DNA from: Steroidobacteraceae bacterium
GTDB lineage: Bacteria; Pseudomonadota; Gammaproteobacteria; Steroidobacterales; Steroidobacteraceae
Assembly (NCBI GenBank): GCA_025451375.1
Contig: JANWKL010000125.1
Coordinates: 1 to 33,967, forward strand
Length of the DNA stretch: 33,967 nt
Reading direction: 5' to 3'
The position numbers and the translations under genes are program-made. This document shows, one piece after another, positions 19,351 to 31,593 of the stretch (position 1 is its first letter; every line of letters begins with the position of its first letter). The notes beneath the pieces are model-generated. The model made no database searches, was not told the DNA's origin, and saw only the letters and a program-made list of their open reading frames with translations.

Positions 19351-19425
19351 GGGCGGTTAGCTCAGCGGTAGAGCACTGCTTTCACACGGCAGGGGCCACT
19401 GGTTCGATCCCAGTACCGCCCACCA
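19351..19425 (+). tRNA. tRNA-Val(CAC)
   Basis: A complete cloverleaf: acceptor GGGCGGT/ACCGCCC, D-arm AGCTCAGCGGTAGAGC, anticodon stem CTGCT/GGCAG with loop TTCACAC (anticodon CAC), T-arm CTGGTTCGATCCCAG, encoded CCA. Its 3' 46 bp are repeated at 26433-26478, the mark of an integration site. Confidence 0.93.
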
Positions 19426-19449
19426 TTCATAAGCACCAACAAAACAAGC

Positions 19450-19702: not shown

Positions 19703-20722
19703 CTACCTCCTGTCGTCGGTTTTCGGGCTTTTCTGCGATGGCGCGGCAGAGCGGTTCGATGAATCCTTCGGGGCGCCGGATTGGCTCACCGACCCGGCGG
19801 CCCGGGCCGCACCGGACGCCATCGCCGAGCCGTCGGCGCGGTTGACGAGCAGCATCCTCGTGCCGCCGTCGAGCCGTACGTTGCGCTTGGTCGAGGCGAT
19901 CACCGAGCCCTGTGCGTTGCCGGCAGACGAGGAGGCCAATTCCAGGCCGTCGATCCCGAACACGCCTTGGCTGCCCGAAGTCAGCATTCCTCTCGCGTTT
20001 AGTCCACCGACCGCAGCCGCCGAATGACCCGTGGCGCCCGCCAGCCCTCCCGCCGGGCTGGACACACCGTGTCCAACGCCCCCGACAAGGCCACCGGCTG
20101 CGCTCACGCCACCGGCCACTGCGCCGCCGCCTCCAAGGAGTCCGCCGCCCCCGCCCCGTGCGGAACCTGCGCCGAAGCCTCCCGCGCCCATGCCGGCGCC
20201 GCCCAAGTCGGAGTCAAGCGAGGCGGCCGACTGCGCCGCCGATACCGCCTGAATCGTTGCGTTTAGAGGAACTTCGTGGCCGTCCCTTAAGACGGCCTTG
20301 TCGAAAACGATCGACAGCACGGACTCGCCAGCCGCACTGCTGGAAGCCGATCGGTCCAGCGGCCGTGCCTGGGTGACGTGGCCCGTGAGCTTCGAGCCCC
20401 GTTTGATGGGGGTGCCATCCGCAGCCTTGGCATCACTATCACTCGTCGCGGTGACAGGATCTCCCGGCTTGGCCTTGCGCGCATCGACTGGTCTGGACAG
20501 CGTGGCATTCATTTCGGAACTACCGGCGGCACCGACCTGCGCAGATTTGGTATCGGCAGATGCCGTGGAAGCGTCGCTGGCAGTGGCGCTCGCGCCGCTG
20601 CGATTCGCGCTGACCGATGTGTCGGGCGTTGTCGAGGCATTGTCCTTTGCGGGAGGGCTGTCGGCGAACGCGTTGCCGGTGGTCGCCAGCAGGGCGCATA
20701 AAAACACGGTCGAAGTCTTCAT
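19703..20722 (-). CDS. Secreted Gly/Ala/Ser-rich hypothetical protein
   Basis: A 339-aa protein with a signal peptide (MKTSTVFLCALLATTGNAFA), a Ser/Ala/Thr-rich low-complexity region (about 21-85), a small beta domain (about 85-185) of the form L-S-x-P-V-D-A-R-K-A-K-P-G-D-P-V-T-A...G-T-P-I-K-R-G-S-K-L-T-G-H-V, and a long Gly/Ala-rich stretch. The beta domain looks like a short segment related to VirB10/TrbI-type C-terminal domains found in secreted proteins, but this is a tentative resemblance and no conjugation gene is near. AAGGAG 10 nt upstream fixes the ATG at 20722. It is the last gene of the island cluster; function unknown. Confidence 0.65.
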   Translation of the reverse strand: MKTSTVFLCALLATTGNAFADSPPAKDNASTTPDTSVSANRSGASATASDASTASADTKSAQVGAAGSSEMNATLSRPVDARKAKPGDPVTATSDSDAKAADGTPIKRGSKLTGHVTQARPLDRSASSSAAGESVLSIVFDKAVLRDGHEVPLNATIQAVSAAQSAASLDSDLGGAGMGAGGFGAGSARGGGGGLLGGGGAVAGGVSAAGGLVGGVGHGVSSPAGGLAGATGHSAAAVGGLNARGMLTSGSQGVFGIDGLELASSSAGNAQGSVIASTKRNVRLDGGTRMLLVNRADGSAMASGAARAAGSVSQSGAPKDSSNRSAAPSQKSPKTDDRR

Positions 20723-20891
20723 GATTCCAGGCTCCTTTCGGCTTGCGGGCCCTACCCCGCCTCCGGGTGGCAACTCTGCAATCCCGGTTGACTCAAATGA
20801 TCGTGACCGAGATCGCATGTGGCGCAATCCGTCCTCGTACACCTGGGAGGGATCACGCACTCATCGGGATATACGACTCAGGTGCCGCGTT

Positions 20892-21173
20892 TCATCCTGC
20901 CGCGCCTGGGCCCGGGGCCGACCCCGGTGGAACTGCCGCCGCCTCGCTGAATCGCAGGCCGATGGCGCATCGACCTTCGCCGCGACTCGTGCAGTAGATC
21001 ACGCGTGCATCGAGTCGAAAGCTTCCGAGCGTATCGGCGATGACGACCCGGTCATCTACGAGGTGTGGTCGTTGCGCCACGATGCGAGCACCGTGCGAAC
21101 TGATGTTTTCAATCAGCACTGGCTCGGAGACGGCCGGCTCGCCCGGTATCTCAAGGCGTGCAGCGATGCTCAT
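20892..21173 (-). CDS. PilZ-domain protein
   Basis: A 93-aa protein made of little more than a PilZ-like beta-barrel: I-E-N-I-S-S-H-G-A-R-I (the D/NxSxxG motif) near residue 23 and A-I-G-L-R-F near the end, with a Pro/Gly/Ala tail. PilZ domains bind cyclic di-GMP, but the RxxxR motif that contacts the nucleotide is not evident before the NxSxxG motif, so binding is doubtful. Start at 21173 is chosen because GGGAGG lies 6 nt upstream; two more in-frame ATG (21179, 21206) exist. The GGDEF gene just upstream ends 56 bp before it, so the two are probably transcribed together. Confidence 0.7.
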   Translation of the reverse strand: MSIAARLEIPGEPAVSEPVLIENISSHGARIVAQRPHLVDDRVVIADTLGSFRLDARVIYCTSRGEGRCAIGLRFSEAAAVPPGSAPGPGAAG

Positions 21174-21229
21174 GGCCATCCTCCCTTCAAGCCTTCCCGA
21201 TTGCATGGGGTACCTCCTGCAGTTCGGCC

Positions 21230-22132
21230 CTAAGACAGGATCGGCGCGGCGCATTCCAGCGAATGCGTAGTCAAAGCCGTGTCTTCGTCGCTAGCTCCTG
21301 GTCTCGTGTCCACCGAAGGCTTGCGGCGGTATAAGGCCGCATCTGCTTGTGCCATGAGCTCAGATAAGGACTGCGGGCGCTCTGTGTCGGAACGCGCCAC
21401 GCCGACACTTAATGTCAGAGCGTATCGGGACTCCCTGGCGCCACGGGCTGCGACACTTTGCCGCACATGCCGGCACAGCTCATCCGCACTACGACGCTCC
21501 CCTTCGATTACCAGAGCAATGAATTCATCGCCGCCGAGCCGCGCGACGATGTCGGATTTGCTGTTGAAGGTGGCTCTGAAGCCCGCGGCCGCTCGCGAGA
21601 GCGCGAGGTCACCTTCGGCGTGGCCAAATCGGTCGTTGATGCGCTTCAAGCCGTCGAGATCGGCGAAAAACACCAGCACGTGCCGTTGCAATCTATGAGC
21701 TGAACGCAGACTCTGACTGGCCAGCACACGAAATGCACGGCGATTGTAGAGACCCGTGAGCTCGTCTCTCAGTGCCAGATACAGGAGCTGTTCCTGTACG
21801 CGCTGTCGACGCTGGGCGTAGCGGATGGCTCTCACCATCGCAAAGGGACGGCGGCCCTGCGGGTCAGAGCACTTAGCGCCCAAATCCGGCAGCAGCAGTA
21901 CGGGCACATTCGGCATCGCTTCCCGGACCCGCAGCGCGGTCTTCGACAGGCGCGCAGCCGGCCAGGTGGAATCCAGCAACACCACGTCGGGTTCCTGCGC
22001 GCCCAGACTTTGGAGTCCGCCGTTCAACCCTGCGACGTCGATCACGTCACAGGTGACAGAGCCATCGTCGACGATCGTGCGGTCCGCCTCGCAAAAATCC
22101 TCGCGTCCGTCGAAGACCAACAGCGCTTTCAT
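21230..22132 (-). CDS. Diguanylate cyclase with degenerate receiver-like N-terminus
   Basis: A 300-aa protein whose C-terminal half is a GGDEF domain (L-R-D-E-L-T-G-L-Y-N-R-R-A-F at about 121-134, F-F-A-D-L-D-G-L-K-R-I-N-D at about 155-167, and an intact GGDEF at 200-204). It should make cyclic di-GMP from two GTP. The inhibitory I-site RxxD reads S-K-S-D here (191-194), so product inhibition is probably lost. The N-terminal 110 residues look receiver-like (A-L-L-V-F-D, P-D-V-V-L-L-D-S-T-W-P), with Asp54 in the phosphoacceptor place but the acidic pair near the start altered. ATG at 22132 has AGGAG 10 nt upstream; an ATG at 22150 is equally possible. It follows the response regulator by 142 bp. 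Confidence 0.85.
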   Translation of the reverse strand: MKALLVFDGREDFCEADRTIVDDGSVTCDVIDVAGLNGGLQSLGAQEPDVVLLDSTWPAARLSKTALRVREAMPNVPVLLLPDLGAKCSDPQGRRPFAMVRAIRYAQRRQRVQEQLLYLALRDELTGLYNRRAFRVLASQSLRSAHRLQRHVLVFFADLDGLKRINDRFGHAEGDLALSRAAAGFRATFNSKSDIVARLGGDEFIALVIEGERRSADELCRHVRQSVAARGARESRYALTLSVGVARSDTERPQSLSELMAQADAALYRRKPSVDTRPGASDEDTALTTHSLECAAPILS

Positions 22133-22251
22133 CGGTGCAACGCTCCTCATGGATTGACCGGCTCCCTTACGGCGCCAAGCGGTGCCTGGCGTTGCCAGAA
22201 CAATAGACCGCGGCAGCAGGACTACAACCGGGTGAACTCTTGAGGATGTGC

Positions 22252-22265
22252 CGGGATATATCCCG
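22252..22265. repeat. 14-bp perfect palindrome CGGGATATATCCCG
   Basis: The palindrome lies between the response regulator and GGDEF genes. Its half CGGGATATA recurs at 20865-20873 between the PilZ gene and the secreted-protein gene, so it may be an operator within the cluster. Confidence 0.4.
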
Positions 22266-22274
22266 AGGGACCGC

Positions 22275-22907
22275 TCAGGGCTCAATGAGTCCGCTGCGGA
22301 TCGCGTAGCGGACCAGGCCGGCAACTTGGTGAATATCGAGCTTTTCCATCAGCTTGGCACGATGGCTATCGGCAGTCTTAGCACTAATGCCTAACAGCGC
22401 CGCGATTTGCTTGGTCGAGCGGCCTTCACCTACCAACTGCAGCACCTGCCGTTCACGCGACGTAAGCGCAACGCTCTCTAGCCCGGTGCCTGCGAGATAG
22501 GCTTCGACGACCGCCTTGGAAATTCTCGGGCTCAGATACACCTCGCCGCACTGCACGTGCTTGACGGCAGCGACCATGTCGTTTCCCGCCTGCGTCTTGA
22601 GAACATAACCGCGGGCACCCGCGCGCAGAGCCTCGATGGCGTAGGGCTCCTCCATATGACGCGTCAGGATGATCGAGCGTGTCTTCGGGCTGATCCGCGG
22701 CATCTCGGTCAGCACCCCGAGGCCACCCAGTTGCGGCATTTCATAGTCCAGAACCGCAACGTCCGGCAGCGACTCGCGAATCACCTCGATGGCTTCCACT
22801 CCCGTCGACGCTTCGCCGACCACCTCGATTTGCTCCTTCTCGAGTAGCAGCCGCAATCCCTGGCGAACGATTGCGTGGTCGTCTGCAAGGACTACTCGAA
22901 TCGACAT
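22275..22907 (-). CDS. NarL/FixJ-family response regulator
   Basis: A 210-aa transcription regulator with a receiver domain (D-D at 9-10, phosphoacceptor Asp54 in V-L-D-Y-E-M-P, T-R switch region, K near residue 104) and a LuxR-type helix-turn-helix at about 145-205 (L-T-S-R-E-R-Q-V-L-Q-L-V-G-E-G...I-A-A-L-L-G-I-S-A-K-T-A-D-S-H). It starts directly after the histidine kinase gene, 1 bp apart, and is its obvious partner. Likely targets are the downstream cyclic di-GMP genes of the island, but no proven site is known. Confidence 0.92.
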   Translation of the reverse strand: MSIRVVLADDHAIVRQGLRLLLEKEQIEVVGEASTGVEAIEVIRESLPDVAVLDYEMPQLGGLGVLTEMPRISPKTRSIILTRHMEEPYAIEALRAGARGYVLKTQAGNDMVAAVKHVQCGEVYLSPRISKAVVEAYLAGTGLESVALTSRERQVLQLVGEGRSTKQIAALLGISAKTADSHRAKLMEKLDIHQVAGLVRYAIRSGLIEP

Positions 22908-22908
22908 G

Positions 22909-23865
22909 TCACGTCTCCAAAGGAATTGACACGACGAGTTCCGTGCCAGCCCCGGCGGCGGATTTAATCTCCAGCGAGCCTCCGAGCGAGCCTGCGCGCT
23001 CGCGAATTCCGATCAGACCAAAGCCCCTCTCGTCAGTTGACGTTTCCGCCAAGTTCACGTCGAAGCCGACACCGTCGTCACGAATATGGCAGGAGATCGC
23101 AGCCGCCTCATGGCGCAGTCGGATCGTTACCTTGGTGGCGCGCGCGTGTCTTACTGCGTTGGTGAGCGATTCCTGCGCGACCCTGTATAACGCAGCCTCG
23201 ATGGGCTCAGGCAAACGCCTCTCGGGTGTGCCTTCGATGGTGATTCGCAGCCCAGAGCGCCGCGAGACGCCTTCCGCGAGATAGGTCAGTGCGGGAACCA
23301 AGCCGAAATCCTTGAGCATCGCGGGCGACAATTCGTGCGACAGCCGCCGCAGTTCTGCCTCGATTCGATCGAGCAGCTCCGTGATATTCGCGACATGACC
23401 CGCCGCCTGCGGCAGATCCTGGGCCAGGTTCGCCGTCGCAATGTAGACTGCTACCAGCAGTTGGCCCGCTTCGTCGTGCAGTGAGTGTGCGATGCGCTTC
23501 GCCTCGCGCTCCAGAACACTGTTGAATCGACGCAGCGCGATGTTTGCGTCGCGAAAGCCCCGATAAGTCATTTCATAGGGGGAGATGCATTCCGCGAAGA
23601 AGTCCGCAGCGCCCGCGAGGGTCGTCGCACATCCTTGAGTGGAGTTCGCGCGCGACAGGAGTGTCTCAAGGCAGGTGTGGTGAATCCGCGCAAGTCCAAG
23701 CAGACCGACTCCTTGCGCGAGTGCAGTGCGCCCTATCTCGTACGCCCGTTCCAACGCGGGTTCGCCGTCGCCCTTAAGATAGCTCTCAACCGCGGACAAG
23801 TAGGCGGTGACGGAAACCGCGCGTTCCGATGGCACCGCCACTGCACTATCACTCCCGTCGATCAC
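22909..23865 (-). CDS. Histidine kinase with RsbU_N-like N-terminal domain
   Basis: A 318-aa cytoplasmic sensor kinase without membrane segments. Residues about 20-100 resemble the RsbU N-terminal domain, the part of RsbU that binds RsbT (Y-L-K-G-D-G-E-P-A-L-E-R-A-Y-E-I-G-R-T-A, and S-P-Y-E-M-T-Y-R-G-F). The HisKA_3 dimerisation domain has His130 in S-L-H-D-E-A-G-Q, and the HATPase has Q-E-S-L-T-N-A-V-R-H-A, D-D-G-V-G-F-D and G-F-G-L-I-G-I-R-E-R-A-G. The GTG start at 23865 overlaps the rsbX-like stop. The domain order implies that RsbT released from the stressosome controls this kinase, in place of an RsbU phosphatase. Confidence 0.88.
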   Translation of the reverse strand: MIDGSDSAVAVPSERAVSVTAYLSAVESYLKGDGEPALERAYEIGRTALAQGVGLLGLARIHHTCLETLLSRANSTQGCATTLAGAADFFAECISPYEMTYRGFRDANIALRRFNSVLEREAKRIAHSLHDEAGQLLVAVYIATANLAQDLPQAAGHVANITELLDRIEAELRRLSHELSPAMLKDFGLVPALTYLAEGVSRRSGLRITIEGTPERRLPEPIEAALYRVAQESLTNAVRHARATKVTIRLRHEAAAISCHIRDDGVGFDVNLAETSTDERGFGLIGIRERAGSLGGSLEIKSAAGAGTELVVSIPLET

Positions 23866-24464
23866 GATTCGCCGCCTCGATAACGCACCAGCAACACAAG
23901 GGCGTCGTCGATGCCCTTGTTGCCCCTTGCCAGAGCTCCGTTTGCGATGCCTTGCAGCGTACCCCGCACGGGCAGGCTCCGAGCAACATCCTGTGCCACG
24001 CCGTCCGTGGTGAATACGAGCAGGTCGTCGCGATCGATCGCCACGACGCTCGCTTGCAGAGGCGGTAAATGCGAGCCGACGACTCCGCTACGCAAAAGGA
24101 GCTTCTCATCGGTGAGGCCCGGTTGCCCTCGTCGCAACACACCTTCGACATTACCAACGCCGGTCCAAGTCATGAGGTGCGCACGCGCGCTGATCGTTGC
24201 AAGACTCAACGCCACTCCGCGCGTGGACCGAAGCGAATCGTGGCAACGCTCAACGAGCACCGTGACTGGATCGCCAGCGTGCTTTTCCAGCACGCCCGCT
24301 GCCACACGCGCTGCCGCTGCGGCTTCGGCACCGTGACCCAAACCGTCGATGACTGCAACCAGGACACCGTCAGACAACTGGCAGAAGACATGCCGATCGC
24401 CCGATTCAGTCTCTCCGGGCATTGCAGCAGTCGCGACACTCCATTCCAGAGCACCCGTCGTCAT
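23862..24464 (-). CDS. rsbX: RsbX-like PP2C/SpoIIE-type serine phosphatase
   Basis: A 200-aa single-domain phosphatase of the PP2C/SpoIIE fold with the metal-binding motifs D-G-L-G-H-G (about 41-46), S-G-V-V-G, T-T-D-G-V and a final D-D-A. RsbX dephosphorylates RsbS and RsbR to reset the stressosome. The ATG at 24464 overlaps the rsbT stop as ATGA; a GTG at 24473 is an alternative. Its size and place straight after rsbT match rsbX in the RsbRST-X modules, and it lacks any sensor domain. Confidence 0.85.
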   Translation of the reverse strand: MTTGALEWSVATAAMPGETESGDRHVFCQLSDGVLVAVIDGLGHGAEAAAAARVAAGVLEKHAGDPVTVLVERCHDSLRSTRGVALSLATISARAHLMTWTGVGNVEGVLRRGQPGLTDEKLLLRSGVVGSHLPPLQASVVAIDRDDLLVFTTDGVAQDVARSLPVRGTLQGIANGALARGNKGIDDALVLLVRYRGGES

Positions 24465-24862
24465 CTTAGCCACTTCGTCACGCGTACCACGGTCCCCCGT
24501 CCGAGGACCGATTCGATTATGAACTCATCCACGAGTCGGCGAACTCCGGGAAGCCCCAAGCCCAGTCCGCCGGATGTCGAATAGCCGTCTCTCATCGCGT
24601 CGTCGATGCTGCGGATTCCCGGTCCGGAATCGCGGCTGATGATCGTCACGCCTTTTGCATTCGCGCTCTCCACGACGCCCAGAACGATTTCCCCCTGACG
24701 CGCATATGACACGATATTCCGTGCCAGCTCCGAGATGGCGGTGGCAATCAATGTTACATCGGTAGCGCTGAAGCCAGTGCGGGCGGCCAGTGCGCGGCCC
24801 TCCTGGCGGGCCTTCACAATGTCAAGGTTTGACCGGATGAGAACGCGAATATCGTCTGGCAC
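24461..24862 (-). CDS. rsbT: RsbT-like serine kinase (stressosome switch protein)
   Basis: A 133-aa GHKL-type serine kinase. The N-box I-S-E-L-A-R-N-I-V-S-Y-A has Glu45 and Asn49, with D-S-G-P-G-I and the Gly-rich G-G-L-G-L-G-L-P-G-V-R lid following, as in B. subtilis RsbT. RsbT is held by the RsbR-RsbS complex, phosphorylates both on stress, and then leaves to bind its target through an RsbU_N-type domain. It starts at a GTG at 24862. Close spacing with rsbS on one side and overlap with rsbX on the other support one operon. Confidence 0.92.
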   Translation of the reverse strand: MPDDIRVLIRSNLDIVKARQEGRALAARTGFSATDVTLIATAISELARNIVSYARQGEIVLGVVESANAKGVTIISRDSGPGIRSIDDAMRDGYSTSGGLGLGLPGVRRLVDEFIIESVLGRGTVVRVTKWLR

Positions 24863-24876
24863 AGGAGCAGATCTCG

Positions 24877-25239
24877 TCAGGAGCTGCTGCGGGCGCGCTG
24901 CTCGAGATGCGCGAGGCCTTCCTCCAGATCGAGAGCAGTAGCCACACCTTCGAGGGTCAACCCCAACTGCACCATGGCAAACGCAACTTCCGGTTGAATG
25001 CCAACGATCACCGTGTCGGCCCCTCGAAGTCGGATCATATACGTGATGTCGCGCAACGTCCGGGTCGCGAACGAATCCATTACATCGAGCGCCGTCACAT
25101 CAACGACCACCCCACGTGATCGAAATTGGATCACGCGGTCGAGGAGTGCACGCCGAAACTGCAGGAGATCTTCGTCCGATAAGGCCGCCTGAATGGTGGC
25201 GATCAGATAGCGACCCTGTTTTAGAATCGGCACCTCCAC
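24877..25239 (-). CDS. rsbS: RsbS-like STAS-domain stressosome scaffold protein
   Basis: A 120-aa single STAS domain, the fixed scaffold of the stressosome. The phosphorylatable Ser56 lies in D-V-M-D-S-F-A-T-R-T-L, matching Ser59 of B. subtilis RsbS (V-I-D-S-F). The start is a GTG at 25239; no strong SD. It follows rsbR by 10 bp. Length is normal for RsbS. Confidence 0.92.
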   Translation of the reverse strand: MEVPILKQGRYLIATIQAALSDEDLLQFRRALLDRVIQFRSRGVVVDVTALDVMDSFATRTLRDITYMIRLRGADTVIVGIQPEVAFAMVQLGLTLEGVATALDLEEGLAHLEQRARSSS

Positions 25240-25249
25240 GATGGAGGCC

Positions 25250-26143
25250 CTACGCCGCGGCGGCCGCTTCCCCTGCGGGGACGACCTTATATCCCAACAG
25301 GCGCTCCGCTTGCTCGATTCCGCCCTGCAGGTCGCCCACAGTATTCATCTTGCCCAGGTCTACACCTATATTCACGATGGTCTGCGCGATCTCCGGCGAC
25401 AGGCCCGTGACGATGACCGTTGCGCCGAGCAGCCGCGATGCTTCCACGGTCTGCACCAGGTGATTGGCGACGGTCGCATCCATCGCTGCAACGCCCGTGA
25501 TGTCGATCACGACCACCTTCGCGCGGTTGGTACGAATGCCGCGCAATAACTGCTCGGTTAGCTGGCGAGCACGTTGCGGATCGATGACACCGATGATCGG
25601 AAGAATGAGCAGGCGCTCGCGTACCTGCAGGACGGGAGTTGAGAGTTCACGTATCGCTTCCTGCTGTTGACGGATGACGCGCTCACGCTCCTGCACGAAT
25701 CCGACGGCCACGGTGTTCGCGATGCGATTTGCCGCCGGTTCGTAGGCATCGAGAATGCGATTGAGCTTGGTGAAGTCACCCTGGTATTTGGCAAAAAGTG
25801 AACGCGCAAGGACATCGCGCAGCAGCAGCACGATGCCTACGACCTCGTGGGTTTCGACGCCGCGCGGAATGATGCGTTCCGAGAGATTCCGGGAATAGGA
25901 CTGCAGAGCCTCAAAAGTGCCGGTCGCGAGCGCTTCCACGTAGTTGTCGTACACTGACGTCGCTTCGGCGAAGATCTCGTCCTTCGTCATCGCTGTCAGC
26001 AATTTGGCTTCGGTGATACGGTTCGCCCATTCTTCTCGTAGTTGCGTCCGATGCTCTCGCAGATGTGCCACAAGCTCTCGCAGGAGCTCGGTCGATTGTG
26101 TGGACGGCGGCTGAAGTACCTCGGCGGGTTTCTTGTTGGCCAC
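25250..26143 (-). CDS. rsbR: RsbR-like stressosome sensor with C-terminal STAS domain
   Basis: A 297-aa protein with an N-terminal helical sensor domain (about 18-155; of the RsbR/RsbRD type, not a globin match I can prove) and a C-terminal STAS domain (about 165-285). The STAS carries A-Q-T-I-V-N-I-G with Thr255, equal to Thr205 of B. subtilis RsbRA, but the other phosphosite region reads M-D-A-T-V-A, so the Thr171 position is Ala with a Thr next to it. GTG start at 26143 with GGAG about 10 nt upstream; the frame stays open to 26422 but the extra codons lie in the att-side region and look non-coding. It is the first gene of the cluster and probably the stress sensor. Confidence 0.88.
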   Translation of the reverse strand: MANKKPAEVLQPPSTQSTELLRELVAHLREHRTQLREEWANRITEAKLLTAMTKDEIFAEATSVYDNYVEALATGTFEALQSYSRNLSERIIPRGVETHEVVGIVLLLRDVLARSLFAKYQGDFTKLNRILDAYEPAANRIANTVAVGFVQERERVIRQQQEAIRELSTPVLQVRERLLILPIIGVIDPQRARQLTEQLLRGIRTNRAKVVVIDITGVAAMDATVANHLVQTVEASRLLGATVIVTGLSPEIAQTIVNIGVDLGKMNTVGDLQGGIEQAERLLGYKVVPAGEAAAAA

Positions 26144-26306
26144 GATACTTGCTCCAATACACCTATTCGGAGGAGATCCCCCCGATTCCCGAGGTACTCT
26201 ACAGGGAGGGAGGGGGCCGCTCATCAGGTAAACACCCGAGGGCGACGACTCAGCGGGGGCCTTGGAGACCGCGCCAGGTCGCAAGCCCGTCGCGATACCG
26301 GACGAT

Positions 26307-26432: not shown

Positions 26433-26478
26433 TTTCACACGGCAGGGGCCATTGGTTCGATCCCAGTACCGCCCACCA
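26433..26478 (+). repeat. Duplicated 3' half of tRNA-Val (attR-like)
   Basis: 46 bp from the anticodon loop to CCA match 19380-19425 with one change in the T-arm (CCACTGG to CCATTGG). The 5' half of the tRNA is absent, so it is not a functional gene. Confidence 0.85.
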
Positions 26479-26490
26479 TAAATCAGGCAT

Positions 26491-26832: not shown

Positions 26833-28167
26833 ATGCCTGCCCCGGCACTCATCGTGCAGACCACTTACGCAGAACTCCTGGAGCGCTGCGCTGCGACGTC
26901 ATTCGAGGACGCCTTTCGCGAAGACGGTACCTTCACGCCCAAAACGATCAAGGGGCGTCGCTACTGGTACTTCCAGTCCGGAACCGCCCAGGGGCGCTCG
27001 CAACGTTACGTCGGACCGGAGTCCCCGGAGCTGCTCGAGCGCATTGCGCATCACAAGGAGCGCCGGGACGATGAACGTGAGCGGCGCGCCCTGGTATCGA
27101 CGCTGGTGCGTTCATTTGGCCTGCCCTCACCGGTCCCACAACTCGGCGATATCATCGCTGCGCTTGCAGGCGCCGGAATCTTTCGGCTTCGCAGCGTACT
27201 CGTCGGGACAGTGGCGTATCAGTGCTACGCGGGCATGCTCGGGCTTCGTCTACCCGGCGCCTTAGTCCAAACCAGCGACATCGACGTCGCGCAGTTCACG
27301 AACGTATCGGTAGCTATAGGAGATCAGACACCGCCAATGCTGCAGGTCTTGCAGGGGGTCGAGAAGAGCTTCCGCGAGATCCCCCATACTTCCGACTCTC
27401 GCCTGACGTCCAGCTACGTCGCCAAAGGCGGATTGCGGGTCGACTTTCTGACGCCGAACGAAGGTCCCGAAAGCGACCGCCCGCAAACGCTGCCTGCCCT
27501 GCAGACGGACGCGCAGCCGTTACGCTTCCTCGATTTTTTGATTCACGAGCCGGAACAGGCTGTGGTCCTGCACGGGCCCGGCATTCATGTCCGTGTTCCC
27601 GGTCCCGAACGGTATGCGGTGCATAAACTAATTATCTCGATGCGTCGACGCGCGGGAGTCGCGAAGCGGGACAAGGATCTACAACAGGTCGAAGTGCTGA
27701 TCGCGGCGCTTGCGGAAAGGCGCGCCCACGAATTCAGGCGCGTATGGGAGGAAGCCCACCACCGGGGACCTAAATGGCGCAAGCATCTCCTGGAAGGCAT
27801 GACGCGCATCGCGCCGCAGGCGCGCGACCTCATGCTCAAGACCCTGGAGCGGCCTCGCGAGATTCTTCCGGGACTCGATCTGACTTTCAACAATCCTCCG
27901 GCGCGGTATGACTCACACCGGGATGTCGTGGCGTTCACCGGTGAGGCGCTCGGTAGCCTCGTCAGCTGCGCCATCAGCGGCGAAGCGCTCGCAGACTATT
28001 TTGGCGCCGATGGCCTCGACAAGGAGGAACGCGTCGAAGCGTTTCTCAAGAACCGCTCGGCCATCGAGCGTCTGGTGCGCGTAAAGTACCTTTCCGGACC
28101 CGTCGAAGACATTGAAGCGGTGCTTCTTGGCACGATGGACGTCGAGAAGCTGCGGCCGCGGACTTGA
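26833..28167 (+). CDS. GSU2403-family nucleotidyltransferase-fold protein fused to a DUF1488-like domain
   Basis: A 444-aa protein. Residues about 8-335 match the GSU2403 (NTP_transf_8-like) family: an N-terminal F-x-x-K-T-I-K-G-R-R-Y-W-Y-F-Q and Q-R-Y-V-G-P-E-S-P-E-L segment, then a nucleotidyltransferase core with V-G-T-V-A-Y-Q-C-Y and the metal-binding D-I-D in Q-T-S-D-I-D-V-A. Residues about 356-430 look like a DUF1488 domain (Y-D-S-H-R-D-V-V-A-F-x-G, C-A-I-S-G-E-A-L-A-D-Y-F-G, F-x-x-x-R-x-x-I-E). Relatives of the first part resemble AbiEii-like toxins, but no antitoxin gene is adjacent. Function unknown; the elaborate operator suggests tight control. It ends convergently 42 bp from the FecR-domain gene. 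Confidence 0.75.
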   Translation: MPAPALIVQTTYAELLERCAATSFEDAFREDGTFTPKTIKGRRYWYFQSGTAQGRSQRYVGPESPELLERIAHHKERRDDERERRALVSTLVRSFGLPSPVPQLGDIIAALAGAGIFRLRSVLVGTVAYQCYAGMLGLRLPGALVQTSDIDVAQFTNVSVAIGDQTPPMLQVLQGVEKSFREIPHTSDSRLTSSYVAKGGLRVDFLTPNEGPESDRPQTLPALQTDAQPLRFLDFLIHEPEQAVVLHGPGIHVRVPGPERYAVHKLIISMRRRAGVAKRDKDLQQVEVLIAALAERRAHEFRRVWEEAHHRGPKWRKHLLEGMTRIAPQARDLMLKTLERPREILPGLDLTFNNPPARYDSHRDVVAFTGEALGSLVSCAISGEALADYFGADGLDKEERVEAFLKNRSAIERLVRVKYLSGPVEDIEAVLLGTMDVEKLRPRT

Positions 28168-28209: not shown

Positions 28210-30369
28210 CTACGCAGTGTGCCCCGGCGGCAGATCCTGCCGATTTGCTGGCGGGGTCGGCTTTTCCGCAGGTCTTTCTGCCGGCTTTGACCGAGTTTCA
28301 GCCTGACGCCGCTGCTCCTGCTGCCTTTCCTGCAGCTGCTGCTGCTGCTGCGCGTGTTGTTGCTGCAGCGCCTGGGTTTGCTGCTGATGCTGCTGCTCGA
28401 GTTGCCGTCGACGCGCCTCGTCAGCCTGTTGCTGGGCAATCTGCTGGTGCTCAAGTTCCTGCTGCCGCTGAACCTGTTGACGCTGCTGCTCCTGCGCGGC
28501 GTGCAACTGTTGCTGCTGCTGAAGATGCTCACGCTCCAGCGCCGACTCCGCGATGCCAGGTGAGGGCGGCCTTGGAGCCGCGGGCAGCTCGTTCGGATGT
28601 ACCGCTCGCGACACCACGGGGTTGGAAGCGACAACCGGTGGCCGCGCCGGCGGACGGTCGGTGCGCGGCGACGGTTCGGCAGCCGGCACGTTTGGTCTGG
28701 CAGCGGGCTGCGTCGCGACATGCGGCATCGCCGGCGGACGATCGGTGCGCGGCGGCGGTTCGGCGGCTGGCATGTTTGCCCTGACGGCAGGCGGCGCAGC
28801 TGCATGCGGCATTGCCGGCGGGGCGATGCGCACCGCGGATGGGCGCGGGGCAACGTTCGGTTGAAGCTGCCGGGTCTGCGCAACCGACAATGGCTTTCCG
28901 GCATTGCTGGCTATCGCGGCCTGGCGCTGAACAAACGCCGGCTGTGGTGGCGGCGGCGCTCTGCGGGCAACGACGGCCCGGGTCTGTACGGCCGCCGGGG
29001 GCTGTTTGGCGCCCGGACGTCGGTCACCGAGCACTGCCTGTCTGGTGGGCACCGCGGCGGGAGCGCGGGCCCGCGCCTGCGCCGTCGCCAGTGCGTGCGA
29101 GTCAACCCGCACGATGTTCTTCGAAACCGGCGCAGCTGAGGCAAACGCCTGTGACGTGGTGGCCGCCACGGCGCCTGGCACCCGGCGATTCACGTAGGTC
29201 ACGTTGGTGACGTTCACGGTCTTGTTGTTGATGATCGTCGTGTTGTAGACATTGTTGATGACGGTTGTATTCACCGTCGTGTTGGACACGTTGATGTTGC
29301 GCACGTAACCGCGGCTCACCGGGTAAGACGGCACGTAAACTTCACGCGGCCCCAACGCAAACCAGGCAACGCCTGCGCCAACGCCCACCCACGCCACGAG
29401 CGCTGGTGCGTATACGGGTCGCACGTAAACCGCCCCCTCGGGGCGGCGCGGGCACGGCACCCAGCCCCACGCGCCGTTGTAGGAAATCCAGCGGCCATAA
29501 TGGAAAGGAGCAAACCCCCACGGTGCATCGTCCACCCAGGTGTAGCCCCACGGCGCAATAAAGGCCCAGTGGCCGTAGTGGTACGGCGCCCAGCCCGCTT
29601 CGACCTGCCGTGGAAACCACACATAGCCATCGTCGGGTGTCTGATTCCAGGTGCCCTGATCATCCAGGTCCTGGTAGCCGATAACGTCCGGGGAAACGTA
29701 GCGAGCGGAAACGGAGGCGTCCCCACGGCGGTCGCGGCCGGCGCTCCAGGCGTCGAACGCGTCCTCGGGACCGCCGGGCTGAGAGGCTTCGGTCAGTTGA
29801 TCGGTACCTGCGAACACGTCTGATTCGTTGGCGCGCACTGAATAGGCAGCGCCACCACCCGTCACCTCGCCCTGGCCGCTGCGCACCCTAACCGCGGTGC
29901 TGTTTCCCGACTCATCGACACTCAGCCGATACAGTCCCGGCCGCAGAATCGAGAACGCGAGATTCGGCGTGTCGATCTCGTAGGTTTCATTGTCGGCGAG
30001 TTGCCGCACGCGCACGAGCAGTGTGCCGGCGCTCAGCTGCACCTGAGTCACCTCATCACCGAGGTTCAAGAATGACACGGCGGTGTTGCTCGCGAGCCGC
30101 AGGAACGAGCCATCCAGTTGCAACTCGACGCGGCCGTCCCGATCGGACCAGAGTTTGTCGCCGGTCGTGAGCGGACGATTGAGCGGCGCTGCGATCCAGT
30201 CTTCGGTGCCGCCGGGCTGGAAGGAGACCGACCCTTCCGCATCCGCGAGCCGCGCTACCCGGGTGGGAGGATCATCCGCATCCGCTGCTGCACGCGATGG
30301 CATGCCCAGGGCCAACACGAGAGTGAAGCCCAGGAGACCCGCAAACGATGCTGGATGCTTGGTGAACAT
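28210..30369 (-). CDS. Secreted FecR/DUF6600-type protein with Q-rich coiled-coil tail
   Basis: A 719-aa exported protein: signal peptide (about 1-28), FecR domain (about 40-185, A-E-G-S-V-S-F, G-D-K-L-W-S-D, R-V-E-L-Q-L-D-G-S-F-L-R-L), a Trp/Tyr-rich DUF6600-like region (about 225-345, G-Y-Q-D-L-D-D-Q-G-T-W, W-A-P-Y-H-Y-G-H-W, A-P-W-G-Y-T-W-V-D-D), an Asn/Thr/Val-rich stretch (358-394), a Pro/Ala region with two 28-residue repeats (about 520-575), and a Gln/Arg-rich coiled coil (about 610-690). Family members sit at the cell surface or periplasm with no known activity. The ATG at 30369 has a GGAGAGG SD 7 nt upstream; the frame continues to 31131 but only as a shadow of the metallo-hydrolase gene. 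Confidence 0.8.
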   Translation of the reverse strand: MFTKHPASFAGLLGFTLVLALGMPSRAAADADDPPTRVARLADAEGSVSFQPGGTEDWIAAPLNRPLTTGDKLWSDRDGRVELQLDGSFLRLASNTAVSFLNLGDEVTQVQLSAGTLLVRVRQLADNETYEIDTPNLAFSILRPGLYRLSVDESGNSTAVRVRSGQGEVTGGGAAYSVRANESDVFAGTDQLTEASQPGGPEDAFDAWSAGRDRRGDASVSARYVSPDVIGYQDLDDQGTWNQTPDDGYVWFPRQVEAGWAPYHYGHWAFIAPWGYTWVDDAPWGFAPFHYGRWISYNGAWGWVPCPRRPEGAVYVRPVYAPALVAWVGVGAGVAWFALGPREVYVPSYPVSRGYVRNINVSNTTVNTTVINNVYNTTIINNKTVNVTNVTYVNRRVPGAVAATTSQAFASAAPVSKNIVRVDSHALATAQARARAPAAVPTRQAVLGDRRPGAKQPPAAVQTRAVVARRAPPPPQPAFVQRQAAIASNAGKPLSVAQTRQLQPNVAPRPSAVRIAPPAMPHAAAPPAVRANMPAAEPPPRTDRPPAMPHVATQPAARPNVPAAEPSPRTDRPPARPPVVASNPVVSRAVHPNELPAAPRPPSPGIAESALEREHLQQQQQLHAAQEQQRQQVQRQQELEHQQIAQQQADEARRRQLEQQHQQQTQALQQQHAQQQQQLQERQQEQRRQAETRSKPAERPAEKPTPPANRQDLPPGHTA
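28645..28812. repeat. 84-bp tandem repeat (two copies) inside the FecR/DUF6600 gene
   Basis: Two in-frame copies with period 84 bp encode 28-residue units ending in R-T-D-R-P-P-A; a third unit begins but diverges. Confidence 0.75.
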
Positions 30370-30531
30370 GAGTGACCTCTCCATTTCCGACAGGGCGCAC
30401 ACTATCGTATCGATACCGCCGGTCCAACCCGGATGCGACCGATCATCCGGCAGGCAGATGAAACGGCACCTGAACGGGCTCGTAACGGGCCAGCCGCGGT
30501 TCCGGTCGCGCCTTGCTAGACTGGCGTCGAC

Positions 30532-31593
30532 ATGCAAGCGCTCGCAGCCGAAGCCAGATCCCCGGACGCCCTGACCTACCCCTGCACCTCGACCCCGGCT
30601 CCGGGGGAAGCGCTGGAAGTGGCTGCGGGCGTGTACTGGCTGCGCATGCCGCTGCCCATGACCTCTTTGAATCACATCAACGTCTGGGCGCTCCGGGACG
30701 GTGAGGGCTGGACGCTGGTGGACACCGGCATGAACACCTCCGACACGGCTGCCGCCTGGCAAAGCGCCTGCGCGACAGCCCTGGGCGGCCTGCCGGTGCG
30801 GCGTGTGATCTGCACGCACATGCACCCGGATCACATCGGCATGGCCGGCTGGCTCACGCGCCAGCACAACTGCCGCCTGTGGACCACCCGCCTGGAGTAC
30901 ATCACCTGCCGCATGCTGGTGGCCGACACCGGACGGGAAGCGCCTGCGGATGCGGTGACGTTCTATCGCGAGGCGGGTTGGGACAGCGACGCGCTCGAGC
31001 ATTACAAGGCGCGCTTCGGCGGCTTCGGGAAAGCGGTGTACGCGCTGCCCGACAGTTACCGGCGGGTCGTCGACGGCGACGAGTTCGATATTGGCGGCAG
31101 GAGCTGGCAGGCAGTGGTGGGCCGCGGGCATTCACCGGAACACCTGTGCCTCTACTGCCGCGAGCTCAAGGTACTGATCTCGGGCGATCAGGTACTGCCG
31201 AGAATCACCTCCAACGTCTCGGTGTTCCCGACCGAGCCAGACGCGGATCCGTTGACTGAATGGCTGGCATCTCTCGCCTCCATCCGCGAGCGGGTCAGCA
31301 ATGATGTGCTGGCGCTGCCCTCTCACAACGAGCCCTTCCACGGTCTGCACGCACGCCTGGAACAACTCATTCGCGGCCACGAAGAGCGGCTCGCACTCCT
31401 GCAGCGCGAACTCGCCACGCCCAAGCGCGCGATTGACATGTTCAGCCTGCTGTTCCGGCGGCGCATCGGCGCGGATGTGCTCAGCATGGCGACCGGCGAG
31501 GCGCTCGCGCACCTGAACTGTCTCATCACCCGCGGCCTTGCGGTGCGCGAAGCAGACGCTGCCGGCATCGGTTGGTACCGGAGCACGACCTGA
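30532..31593 (+). CDS. Metallo-beta-lactamase-fold hydrolase
   Basis: A 353-aa cytoplasmic metallo-hydrolase with the zinc motif H-M-H-P-D-H (His96, His98, Asp100, His101), a second-shell D-T-G at 64-66, R-G-H-S-P-E-H near residue 199, I-S-G-D-Q-V-L-P near residue 222 and a late P-S-H-N-E-P-F. The C-terminal third (after about 260) is a helical extension typical of the larger GloB-like MBL hydrolases. Substrate unknown (thioester or ester hydrolysis are common in the family). Its stop overlaps the next start as TGATG, so it is coupled to the M14 peptidase. Confidence 0.88.
   Translation: MQALAAEARSPDALTYPCTSTPAPGEALEVAAGVYWLRMPLPMTSLNHINVWALRDGEGWTLVDTGMNTSDTAAAWQSACATALGGLPVRRVICTHMHPDHIGMAGWLTRQHNCRLWTTRLEYITCRMLVADTGREAPADAVTFYREAGWDSDALEHYKARFGGFGKAVYALPDSYRRVVDGDEFDIGGRSWQAVVGRGHSPEHLCLYCRELKVLISGDQVLPRITSNVSVFPTEPDADPLTEWLASLASIRERVSNDVLALPSHNEPFHGLHARLEQLIRGHEERLALLQRELATPKRAIDMFSLLFRRRIGADVLSMATGEALAHLNCLITRGLAVREADAAGIGWYRSTT

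Follow-up and report, generated by a model that had tools for sequence, protein, structure and literature searches.

In a stressosome operon of a Steroidobacteraceae bacterium (contig JANWKL010000125.1, 33,967 nucleotides, analysed whole and hereafter called the window), the signal output seems to run no longer through a partner-switching sigma factor but through a two-component phosphorelay and cyclic di-GMP (c-di-GMP). The whole circuit proposed here, as read from the sequence, is considered reasonably probable. The parts of the operon, their order, the RsbU_N domain of its kinase, the recurrence of the arrangement in relatives, a shared operator-like motif and the boundaries of the island that carries it are features of the DNA itself. 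The window is contig C125 of an assembly of 2.66 Mb (173 contigs, 93.5% complete).

The operon lies on the minus strand from 26143 to 20892 and consists of rsbR, rsbS, rsbT, rsbX, a histidine kinase gene, a NarL-type regulator gene (narL), a GGDEF gene and a PilZ gene, in that order. An earlier note on this DNA had listed the same eight genes in one orientation, and each of the eight proteins matches a family above the Pfam cut-off. The tight spacing with overlaps that was also described there holds from rsbR to narL, where neighbouring genes overlap (rsbT/rsbX by 13 nt, rsbX/kinase by 4 nt) or are located at most 14 nt from each other (kinase/narL, 1 nt), but it ends at narL, since a gap of 124 bp containing promoter-like and operator-like sequence precedes the GGDEF gene. 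The start codons of the GGDEF gene (ATG 22150) and the PilZ gene (ATG 21206) were picked by comparison with the related locus L016. In detail, the genes are:

25250..26143, minus strand: rsbR (Pfam RsbRD_N and STAS; STPV from residue 169 and MDAT from residue 222, in the numbering of P0001)
24877..25239, minus strand: rsbS (Pfam STAS; MDSF from residue 54)
24461..24862, minus strand: rsbT, the switch kinase (Pfam HATPase_c_2; R19, R23 and D78 at these numbers, A at 24)
23862..24473, minus strand: rsbX, a PP2C-type feedback phosphatase (Pfam SpoIIE, 36.3 bits, cut-off 25)
22909..23865, minus strand: histidine kinase (Pfam RsbU_N at residues 21-99, HisKA_3 at 123-182, HATPase_c at 224-317)
22275..22907, minus strand: NarL/FixJ-type response regulator (Pfam Response_reg and GerE; receiver with D54, LuxR-type helix-turn-helix)
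21230..22150, minus strand: GGDEF protein of the diguanylate cyclase family (PF00990, 4.8e-34; RLGGDEF intact)
20892..21206, minus strand: PilZ protein (Pfam 30.6 bits, cut-off 22.5; RLEGR and NISSHG by eye)

A stressosome core is present within the one operon, that is, RsbR and RsbS with STAS domains and the GHKL kinase RsbT. Phosphorylatable Ser/Thr residues are found in the STAS regions, in STPV and MDAT of RsbR and in MDSF of RsbS. On the precedent of Bacillus, we take the first two to be the likely phospho-threonine places and the third to be the phosphorylatable site of RsbS; D78 is presumably a functional residue of RsbT. The kinase and regulator are of the NarX/NarL type: HisKA_3 and HATPase_c with a conserved His (H130, within HDEAGQ) on one side, a receiver with a conserved Asp and a LuxR-type helix-turn-helix on the other. 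By eye, the kinase has no membrane segment, and the GGDEF protein has no RxxD, the inhibitory-site motif of GGDEF proteins, ahead of RLGGDEF. RLEGR and NISSHG in the PilZ protein are presumably forms of the c-di-GMP-binding motifs RxxxR and (D/N)xSxxG. The absence of a sigma-B branch, as claimed previously, was also found: the operon has no RsbU-RsbV-RsbW-sigma B genes, and none of the three matches of the SigB/F/G model in the genome (93.5% complete assembly) reaches the cut-off.

The kinase appears to be an RsbT-type target, a reading supported by the domain that it shares with RsbU and that RsbT binds there. Its N-terminus, previously described as RsbU_N-like, proved to be a true RsbU_N: residues 21-99 score 30.7 bits (cut-off 25.5) with PF08673, and a profile of 17 kinase N-termini, each with the PF08673 match, recovers the solved structures of Bacillus subtilis RsbU (2j70, 2j6z, 1w53, 2j6y; E 1.2e-5 to 2.4e-4). 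RsbU_N runs directly into HisKA_3 and no other input domain is given by Pfam. The single-chain AlphaFold2 model (5 sequences) shows four helices at residues 19-102 with a block-mean predicted local distance difference test score (pLDDT) of ~60-90, the mean of the model being 69.8. In the fold search with the kinase, the list of matches was filled by kinase domains, so no conclusion on the N-terminus follows from structure search. Kinase E35 (position 20 of A3) aligns with RsbU E24, and this glutamate is invariant in all 17 kinases; E24 and Y28 are among the RsbU residues implicated in RsbT binding in the accessible text of PMC12143880. The same text names R19, R23 and N24 of RsbT; positions 19 and 23 are also R in the protein of the window, while position 24 is A, as judged by residue numbers rather than by an alignment with B. 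subtilis RsbT.

The arrangement recurs beyond the window. Seventeen loci encoding RsbU_N-HisKA_3 kinases were compared (window, L016-L019, L023, L024, L027, L028, L030-L035, L063 and L064), with L017 coming from a 'Deltaproteobacteria' metagenome-assembled genome (MAG) and L018 and L019 from Acidobacteria MAGs; L029, apparently the same contig as L016, and L020, which lies within L035, were dropped before counting. R-S-T-X is present in 15 of the 17 loci, the remaining two being cut by contig ends, and each of the 17 has an rsbT, which in L024 comes after narL and in the genome of L035 (G774) is located on a second contig, L128. The counts for narL and GGDEF refer to 15 loci, because the sequence of L019 and L063 stops within the kinase gene. 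In all 15, narL follows the kinase, in L031 ~1.4 kb later. The order R-S-T-X-kinase-NarL is found in Gammaproteobacteria, one 'Deltaproteobacteria' MAG and one Acidobacteria MAG. In 12 of the 15 loci (window, L016, L018, L023, L027, L028, L030, L032-L035 and L064), narL is in turn followed by a GGDEF gene. RsbU_N itself is rare: genomes with a match number 8/369, 8/396, 8/58 and 10/398 in the class, order, genus and phylum samples, which overlap and each include the genome of the window.

The GGDEF proteins differ in their N-termini, which are receiver-like (window, L016), PAS (L023, L064), coiled by eye (L027) or short and helical by eye (the rest). A direct RsbT-GGDEF link through the helical N-terminal domain of seven relatives was tried and rejected, the domain being unrelated to RsbU_N in a profile comparison (probability 0.1%). 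In a tree of the 12 GGDEF domains and one unlinked GGDEF domain, nine form one group and that of L027 stands beside the unlinked one. This makes it likely that GGDEF genes were recruited more than once, although outgroup sampling is thin; judged with one outgroup, the linked genes would belong to at least two lineages and probably three.

The regulatory wiring is suggested by an operator-like motif shared between the rsbR and GGDEF upstream regions. In the DNA upstream of rsbR in ten loci (the near-copies L016, of the window, and L030, of L028, being left out), the motif search found nnTnnGGTnTTTACCnGA in 10/10. The motif reached 18.4 bits, whereas dinucleotide shuffles, 25 in all, gave 10.66 +/- 0.29 and at most 11.24 (150 random starts were used on the real set and 60 on each shuffle). 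Its 16 central bases, TCRGGTR-TT-YACCYGA, form a 7-2-7 inverted repeat. The half-site is YACCYGA; the heptamer of Escherichia coli NarL is TACYYMT, and the two differ in orientation. The corresponding features of the window are:

26224..26241, minus strand: operator-like site O1, CCTCGGGTGTTTACCTGA, an 18-bp site with a 7-2-7 inverted repeat upstream of rsbR (motif search)
26196..26223, minus strand: proposed rsbR promoter, with tgagcg at the -35 place right after O1, a 16-bp spacer and TAGAGT at -10 (register by eye; weak)

When each locus and its close relatives were left out of training and both strands were scanned, the rsbR site ranked first in 7 of the 10 loci; its rank was 2 in L023 and L027 and 3 in L064. 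For two of these three, L023 and L064, the site in the narL-GGDEF gap has a score equal to the best one found away from the rsbR site. For O1 the rank was 1 of 67,900 with 24.3 bits, the next score elsewhere being 10.7. Loci that had no part in training also carry the motif, namely L016, L030 and L088 (the rsbR of G774, 26.3 bits), and a weaker site precedes rsbR in L031 (14.1 bits, 12.4 on the other strand). By comparison, the best site in each of the 12 RsbU_N loci without a kinase-narL pair, classed by phmmer against the proteins of the window rather than by Pfam, has only 5.8-11.0 bits; five of these 12 contain an rsbR match.

The same motif is located before the GGDEF gene, in the gap that separates it from narL:

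22228..22245, minus strand: operator-like site O2, CCTCAAGAGTTCACCCGG, in the narL-GGDEF gap (matrix rank 4 of 67,900; p 0.0037; 6 of 7 core bases)
22200..22227, minus strand: proposed GGDEF promoter, with TTGTAG abutting O2, a 16-bp spacer and TATTGT (promoter pattern)

Ranks 1 and 2 of the matrix in the window are O1 and its reverse. The promoter pattern YTGNNN-16-TA(T/C)NNT, chosen after inspecting the gaps, finds a promoter in 7 of the 12 narL-GGDEF gaps. In all seven, which represent three clades, the 18 bases right before the -35 agree with the rsbR motif at 5-7 of its 7 core positions. Across the 12 gaps, 2.5% of positions reach this level. The matrix trained on rsbR sites gave p values of 0.0014 to 0.031 in the gaps of L023, L064, the window, L016 and L034, and Fisher's combined p was 1.4e-4 with each of six clades represented by its least favourable member. 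E. coli NarL activates yeaR and ogt from 7-2-7 sites abutting the -35 (PMC7419079, accessible part), and the O2-type site likewise ends at the -35, which points to activation rather than repression. Of the coupling to c-di-GMP that had been proposed for this locus, the recurrence of the GGDEF gene (12/15) and the shared operator-like motif support the connection, and the link is more likely transcriptional, with the regulator acting on the GGDEF promoter, than direct.

Combining these elements, the circuit would operate as follows. RsbR and RsbS would hold RsbT, which under stress would phosphorylate both and leave, as known from Bacillus. Free RsbT would bind the RsbU_N domain of the kinase, order the linker and shift the enzyme to its kinase mode, and the kinase would phosphorylate the NarL-type regulator, as their adjacency and families suggest. 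The phosphorylated regulator, as a dimer, is the presumed binder of the 7-2-7 palindrome before the two promoters. From the site at the rsbR promoter it would autoregulate the whole operon, and from the site abutting the -35 of the separately transcribed cyclase gene it would be expected to activate, given the same position at yeaR and ogt. The c-di-GMP produced would act via the PilZ protein in those loci that have one, and RsbX would reset the sensor.

Several observations weigh against this circuit or parts of it. The kinases do not retain RsbU Y28, a residue on which RsbT binding depends in Bacillus; its counterpart in the kinase of the window is E39. The motif is present in 14 of 16 rsbR upstream regions and no site was found in the other two (L019, L063), and the protein that binds it is assigned by inference. 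A TTG occurs at the abutting -35 place in only 3 of 10 loci (L017, L023, L064); the window has tgagcg, which is not -35-like, and its rsbR promoter is therefore poorly defined. At the other end, 5 of the 12 narL-GGDEF gaps have no promoter by the pattern given above, and with the matrix alone p is above 0.05 in 7 of the 12. No GGDEF gene follows narL in 3 of the 15 loci (L017, L024, L031), and by phmmer a PilZ gene is found in only three of the 12 loci with a GGDEF gene (window, L016, L018). The GGDEF residues are degenerate in the genus mates L028 and L033, where catalysis may thus be lost; the altered motifs are GGNEF and SGDEF, in the proteins encoded at L028 6489-7295 and L033 6485-7381, and these cyclases may be decaying or may have turned into receptors.

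Whether the regulator activates or represses is the least secure point of the circuit, and the main rival is a repressing regulator. Under that alternative, either the regulator represses its own stressosome operon and the cyclase gene, with a fall in c-di-GMP under stress, or RsbT turns the kinase into a phosphatase. The HDxxxQ form seen in the kinase is known from bifunctional HisKA_3 enzymes and would suit such a switch, and most loci, the window included, have no -35-like sequence after the rsbR site, which makes activation less secure there. Repression is nevertheless regarded as rather unlikely, because the site at the GGDEF promoter ends where the -35 begins, in the manner of the NarL-activated yeaR and ogt (accessible part of PMC7419079). 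A branching of the phosphorelay by protein contact seems improbable; in this scheme, comparable to Vibrio D1-D2, the GGDEF protein itself would be phosphorylated by the kinase on its receiver-like N-terminus, with the NarL-type regulator as a further target. Over 44 columns that N-terminus in the window aligns with the receivers of the regulators, Asp on Asp, and a low-confidence model gives it a strand-helix pattern; but the hhalign probability is low (32%, E 4.8e-4), the block-mean pLDDT of this part is 29-55, a receiver-like N-terminus occurs only in the window and L016 (the others are PAS, coiled or short helical), and the operator-like site before the GGDEF gene offers a simpler link.

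It is very unlikely that RsbT acts directly on the diguanylate cyclase in parallel to the kinase, as proposed for Moorella MtG. Such control of a GGDEF protein through RsbT and RsbU_N has been reported for Moorella, as cited in the accessible parts of PMC12143880 and PMC4976288, but Pfam finds no RsbU_N in the GGDEF protein of the window. A chance neighbourhood, with the GGDEF and PilZ genes as unrelated cargo of the island, would agree with the island location and with a PilZ gene in three loci only. This can hardly be credited, however, when 12 of the 15 loci, from several lineages, have a GGDEF gene after narL and the same motif stands in a fixed register in all seven gaps with a recognised promoter. 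Activation of the cyclase gene through an RsbT-started phosphorelay is the reading preferred here.

A wider regulon was searched for in 12 module-bearing genomes, and no larger set of sites stood out. The pattern TNRGGNNTTYMCCYGR gave 26 matches, against 16 for the reversed pattern; five lie upstream of rsbR, one is the GGDEF site of G702, and 17 of the other 20 fall inside open frames of at least 100 amino acids (aa). The open-frame criterion is weak, because the rsbR site of the window also lies inside such a frame. The genome of the window contains two matches, one of them the rsbR site and the other within a 472-aa frame. With a simpler pattern there are seven, against two for the control, and only the rsbR site exceeds 13 bits. 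In 7 of the 12 genomes even the rsbR sites escape the exact pattern; other sites were possibly overlooked too, and a regulator dedicated to its own module is only suggested.

The operon is the main cargo of an island bounded by a tRNA gene and a partial copy of it, in agreement with the 'apparent island' of the earlier note:

19351..19425, plus strand: tRNA-Val (anticodon CAC), left boundary (ARAGORN)
26433..26486, plus strand: copy of the 3' part of the tRNA-Val, from the anticodon loop onward, with a few further bases, right boundary (54 nt, 93% identity)
19703..20722, minus strand: 339-aa protein without a Pfam match (signal-peptide-like start by eye), 169 bp past the PilZ gene

The copy matches 19380-19433 at a distance of 7053 nt, and the 25-nt end of the tRNA has two matches in the window and none in 100 shuffles. 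Between the boundaries, about 7 kb apart, the recognised genes are the operon and the gene of the 339-aa protein (20722-19703), which the previously proposed span of 19703..26143 had also included. Among the fetched loci, this protein matched its own copy only, and its part in the circuit is doubtful. No integrase match was found in the frames scanned, nine minus-strand genes and ten of the longer plus-strand frames. The DNA of the right flank had no match in 29 loci of the genus, 19 of them with an intact tRNA-Val, and no empty site was found among them.

In the genus, tRNA-Val(CAC) is located beside gltX, and partial copies of its 3' end were seen in eight stretches (L128-L135) from seven or eight genus mates, with several copies in a row in L130, L134 and L135. 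Nine of 14 partial copies, that of the window included, begin at tRNA base 30. Neighbouring copies in genus mates are ~0.8-3.6 kb apart, compared with 7 kb in the window, and have one to a few open reading frames between them. Since partial copies of the same tRNA recur, this gene looks like a hot spot of integration, and the stretches between the copies may be a family of elements that have tRNA boundaries and are mobilised in trans. In L016, the operon has other neighbours and no tRNA within its 14.5 kb; together with the patchy occurrence in the genus (8/58) this argues for horizontal movement, and the whole unit probably moves in this way. We would go further only tentatively, to the possible picture of a mobile, self-contained switch with a stress memory: an integrase-less tRNA-Val island with its strongest operators at its own operon and its own cyclase gene, a phosphorelay started by RsbT, positive feedback on the sensor, and c-di-GMP as a dedicated plug-in output.

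To the right of the island, the window encodes a nucleotidyltransferase (NTP_transf_8) with a DUF1488 tail directly adjacent (26833-28167) and a 973-aa frame with FecR and DUF6600 domains (28210-31131). In other genomes, two close RsbU_N stretches were seen in five of the ten matching genomes of the phylum sample (L053, L054, L055, L058, L060), although in one of the five, G876, the second stretch is below the cut-off; such pairs are possibly two RsbT targets side by side. Stressosome clusters with two consecutive RsbT-like genes were seen in L021, L022, L025 and L058.

Histidine kinases with RsbU_N in proteobacterial stressosome operons are already published (PMC12143880, PMC9237108; these and the other papers cited below are taken from their accessible parts), and a gammaproteobacterial 'NreB' (MBI3545564.1) is modelled in Fig. 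5E of PMC12143880. The central inference of the earlier note, that RsbT docks on such a kinase, is therefore not new. As in the window, the published kinases have RsbU_N fused to a histidine kinase beside stressosome genes and are proposed as RsbT targets; the accessible text describes no NarL-type operator, NarL-GGDEF-PilZ tail or island for them, unlike the case here. Stressosomes with globin-coupled RsbR have eleven kinds of downstream modules, some with RsbU_N (Heinz et al. 2022, PMC9237108), whereas the RsbR of the window is of the RsbRD_N type. In Vibrio, no positive interaction of RsbT with its downstream kinase was obtained (PMC9237108).

Among the known outputs to c-di-GMP, the RSTX-D1-D2 module of Vibrio vulnificus also has, after rsbRSTX, a two-component system with a connection to c-di-GMP (PMC10014275, PMC9237108), and its motility effects are thought to run through this messenger (PMC10014275). 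There, however, no RsbU_N was detected and D1-D2 themselves are predicted to act on c-di-GMP, whereas the NarL-type regulator and the GGDEF protein are separate here. The MtG stressosome of Moorella thermoacetica shares the output to c-di-GMP, but carries RsbU_N on the GGDEF protein itself, unlike the window, and the accessible text mentions no phosphorelay (PMC12143880). The B. subtilis RsbRST-RsbU-sigma B system likewise combines R, S, T and X with a target that carries RsbU_N, but the target is a PP2C phosphatase working through partner switching on a sigma factor, none of which the operon of the window has. The closest parallel at the promoter is E. coli NarX-NarL at yeaR and ogt, with a HisKA_3 kinase, a NarL regulator and a 7-2-7 repeat abutting the -35 (PMC7419079), though the input there is nitrate, perceived by a membrane sensor.

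In the accessible literature (titles and the starts of abstracts, with subscription papers including Pane-Farre 2005 and 2017 outside this scope), no operator arrangement like the present one is described, nothing joining rsbT, PilZ and the stressosome was found, and the work on stressosomes in Acidobacteria concerns blue-light sensing. Thus, of what had been suggested as possibly novel, the coupling to an RsbU_N kinase is known, and the regulator-motif-cyclase wiring and its mobile setting look new, being without precedent in that literature.

The module bears on the way in which stressosomes signal in bacteria without sigma B. In the kinase described here, the only input recognised is the domain to which RsbT binds in RsbU, and the outcome could be read directly at the two operator-like sites, so that a path from stressosome to c-di-GMP becomes testable with few proteins and two promoter fusions. 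If the proposed circuit is true, sensor complex, phosphorelay and second messenger would be joined in one transferable unit, and its presence in several phyla, with different GGDEF proteins recruited repeatedly, would make it a transferable c-di-GMP stress module.

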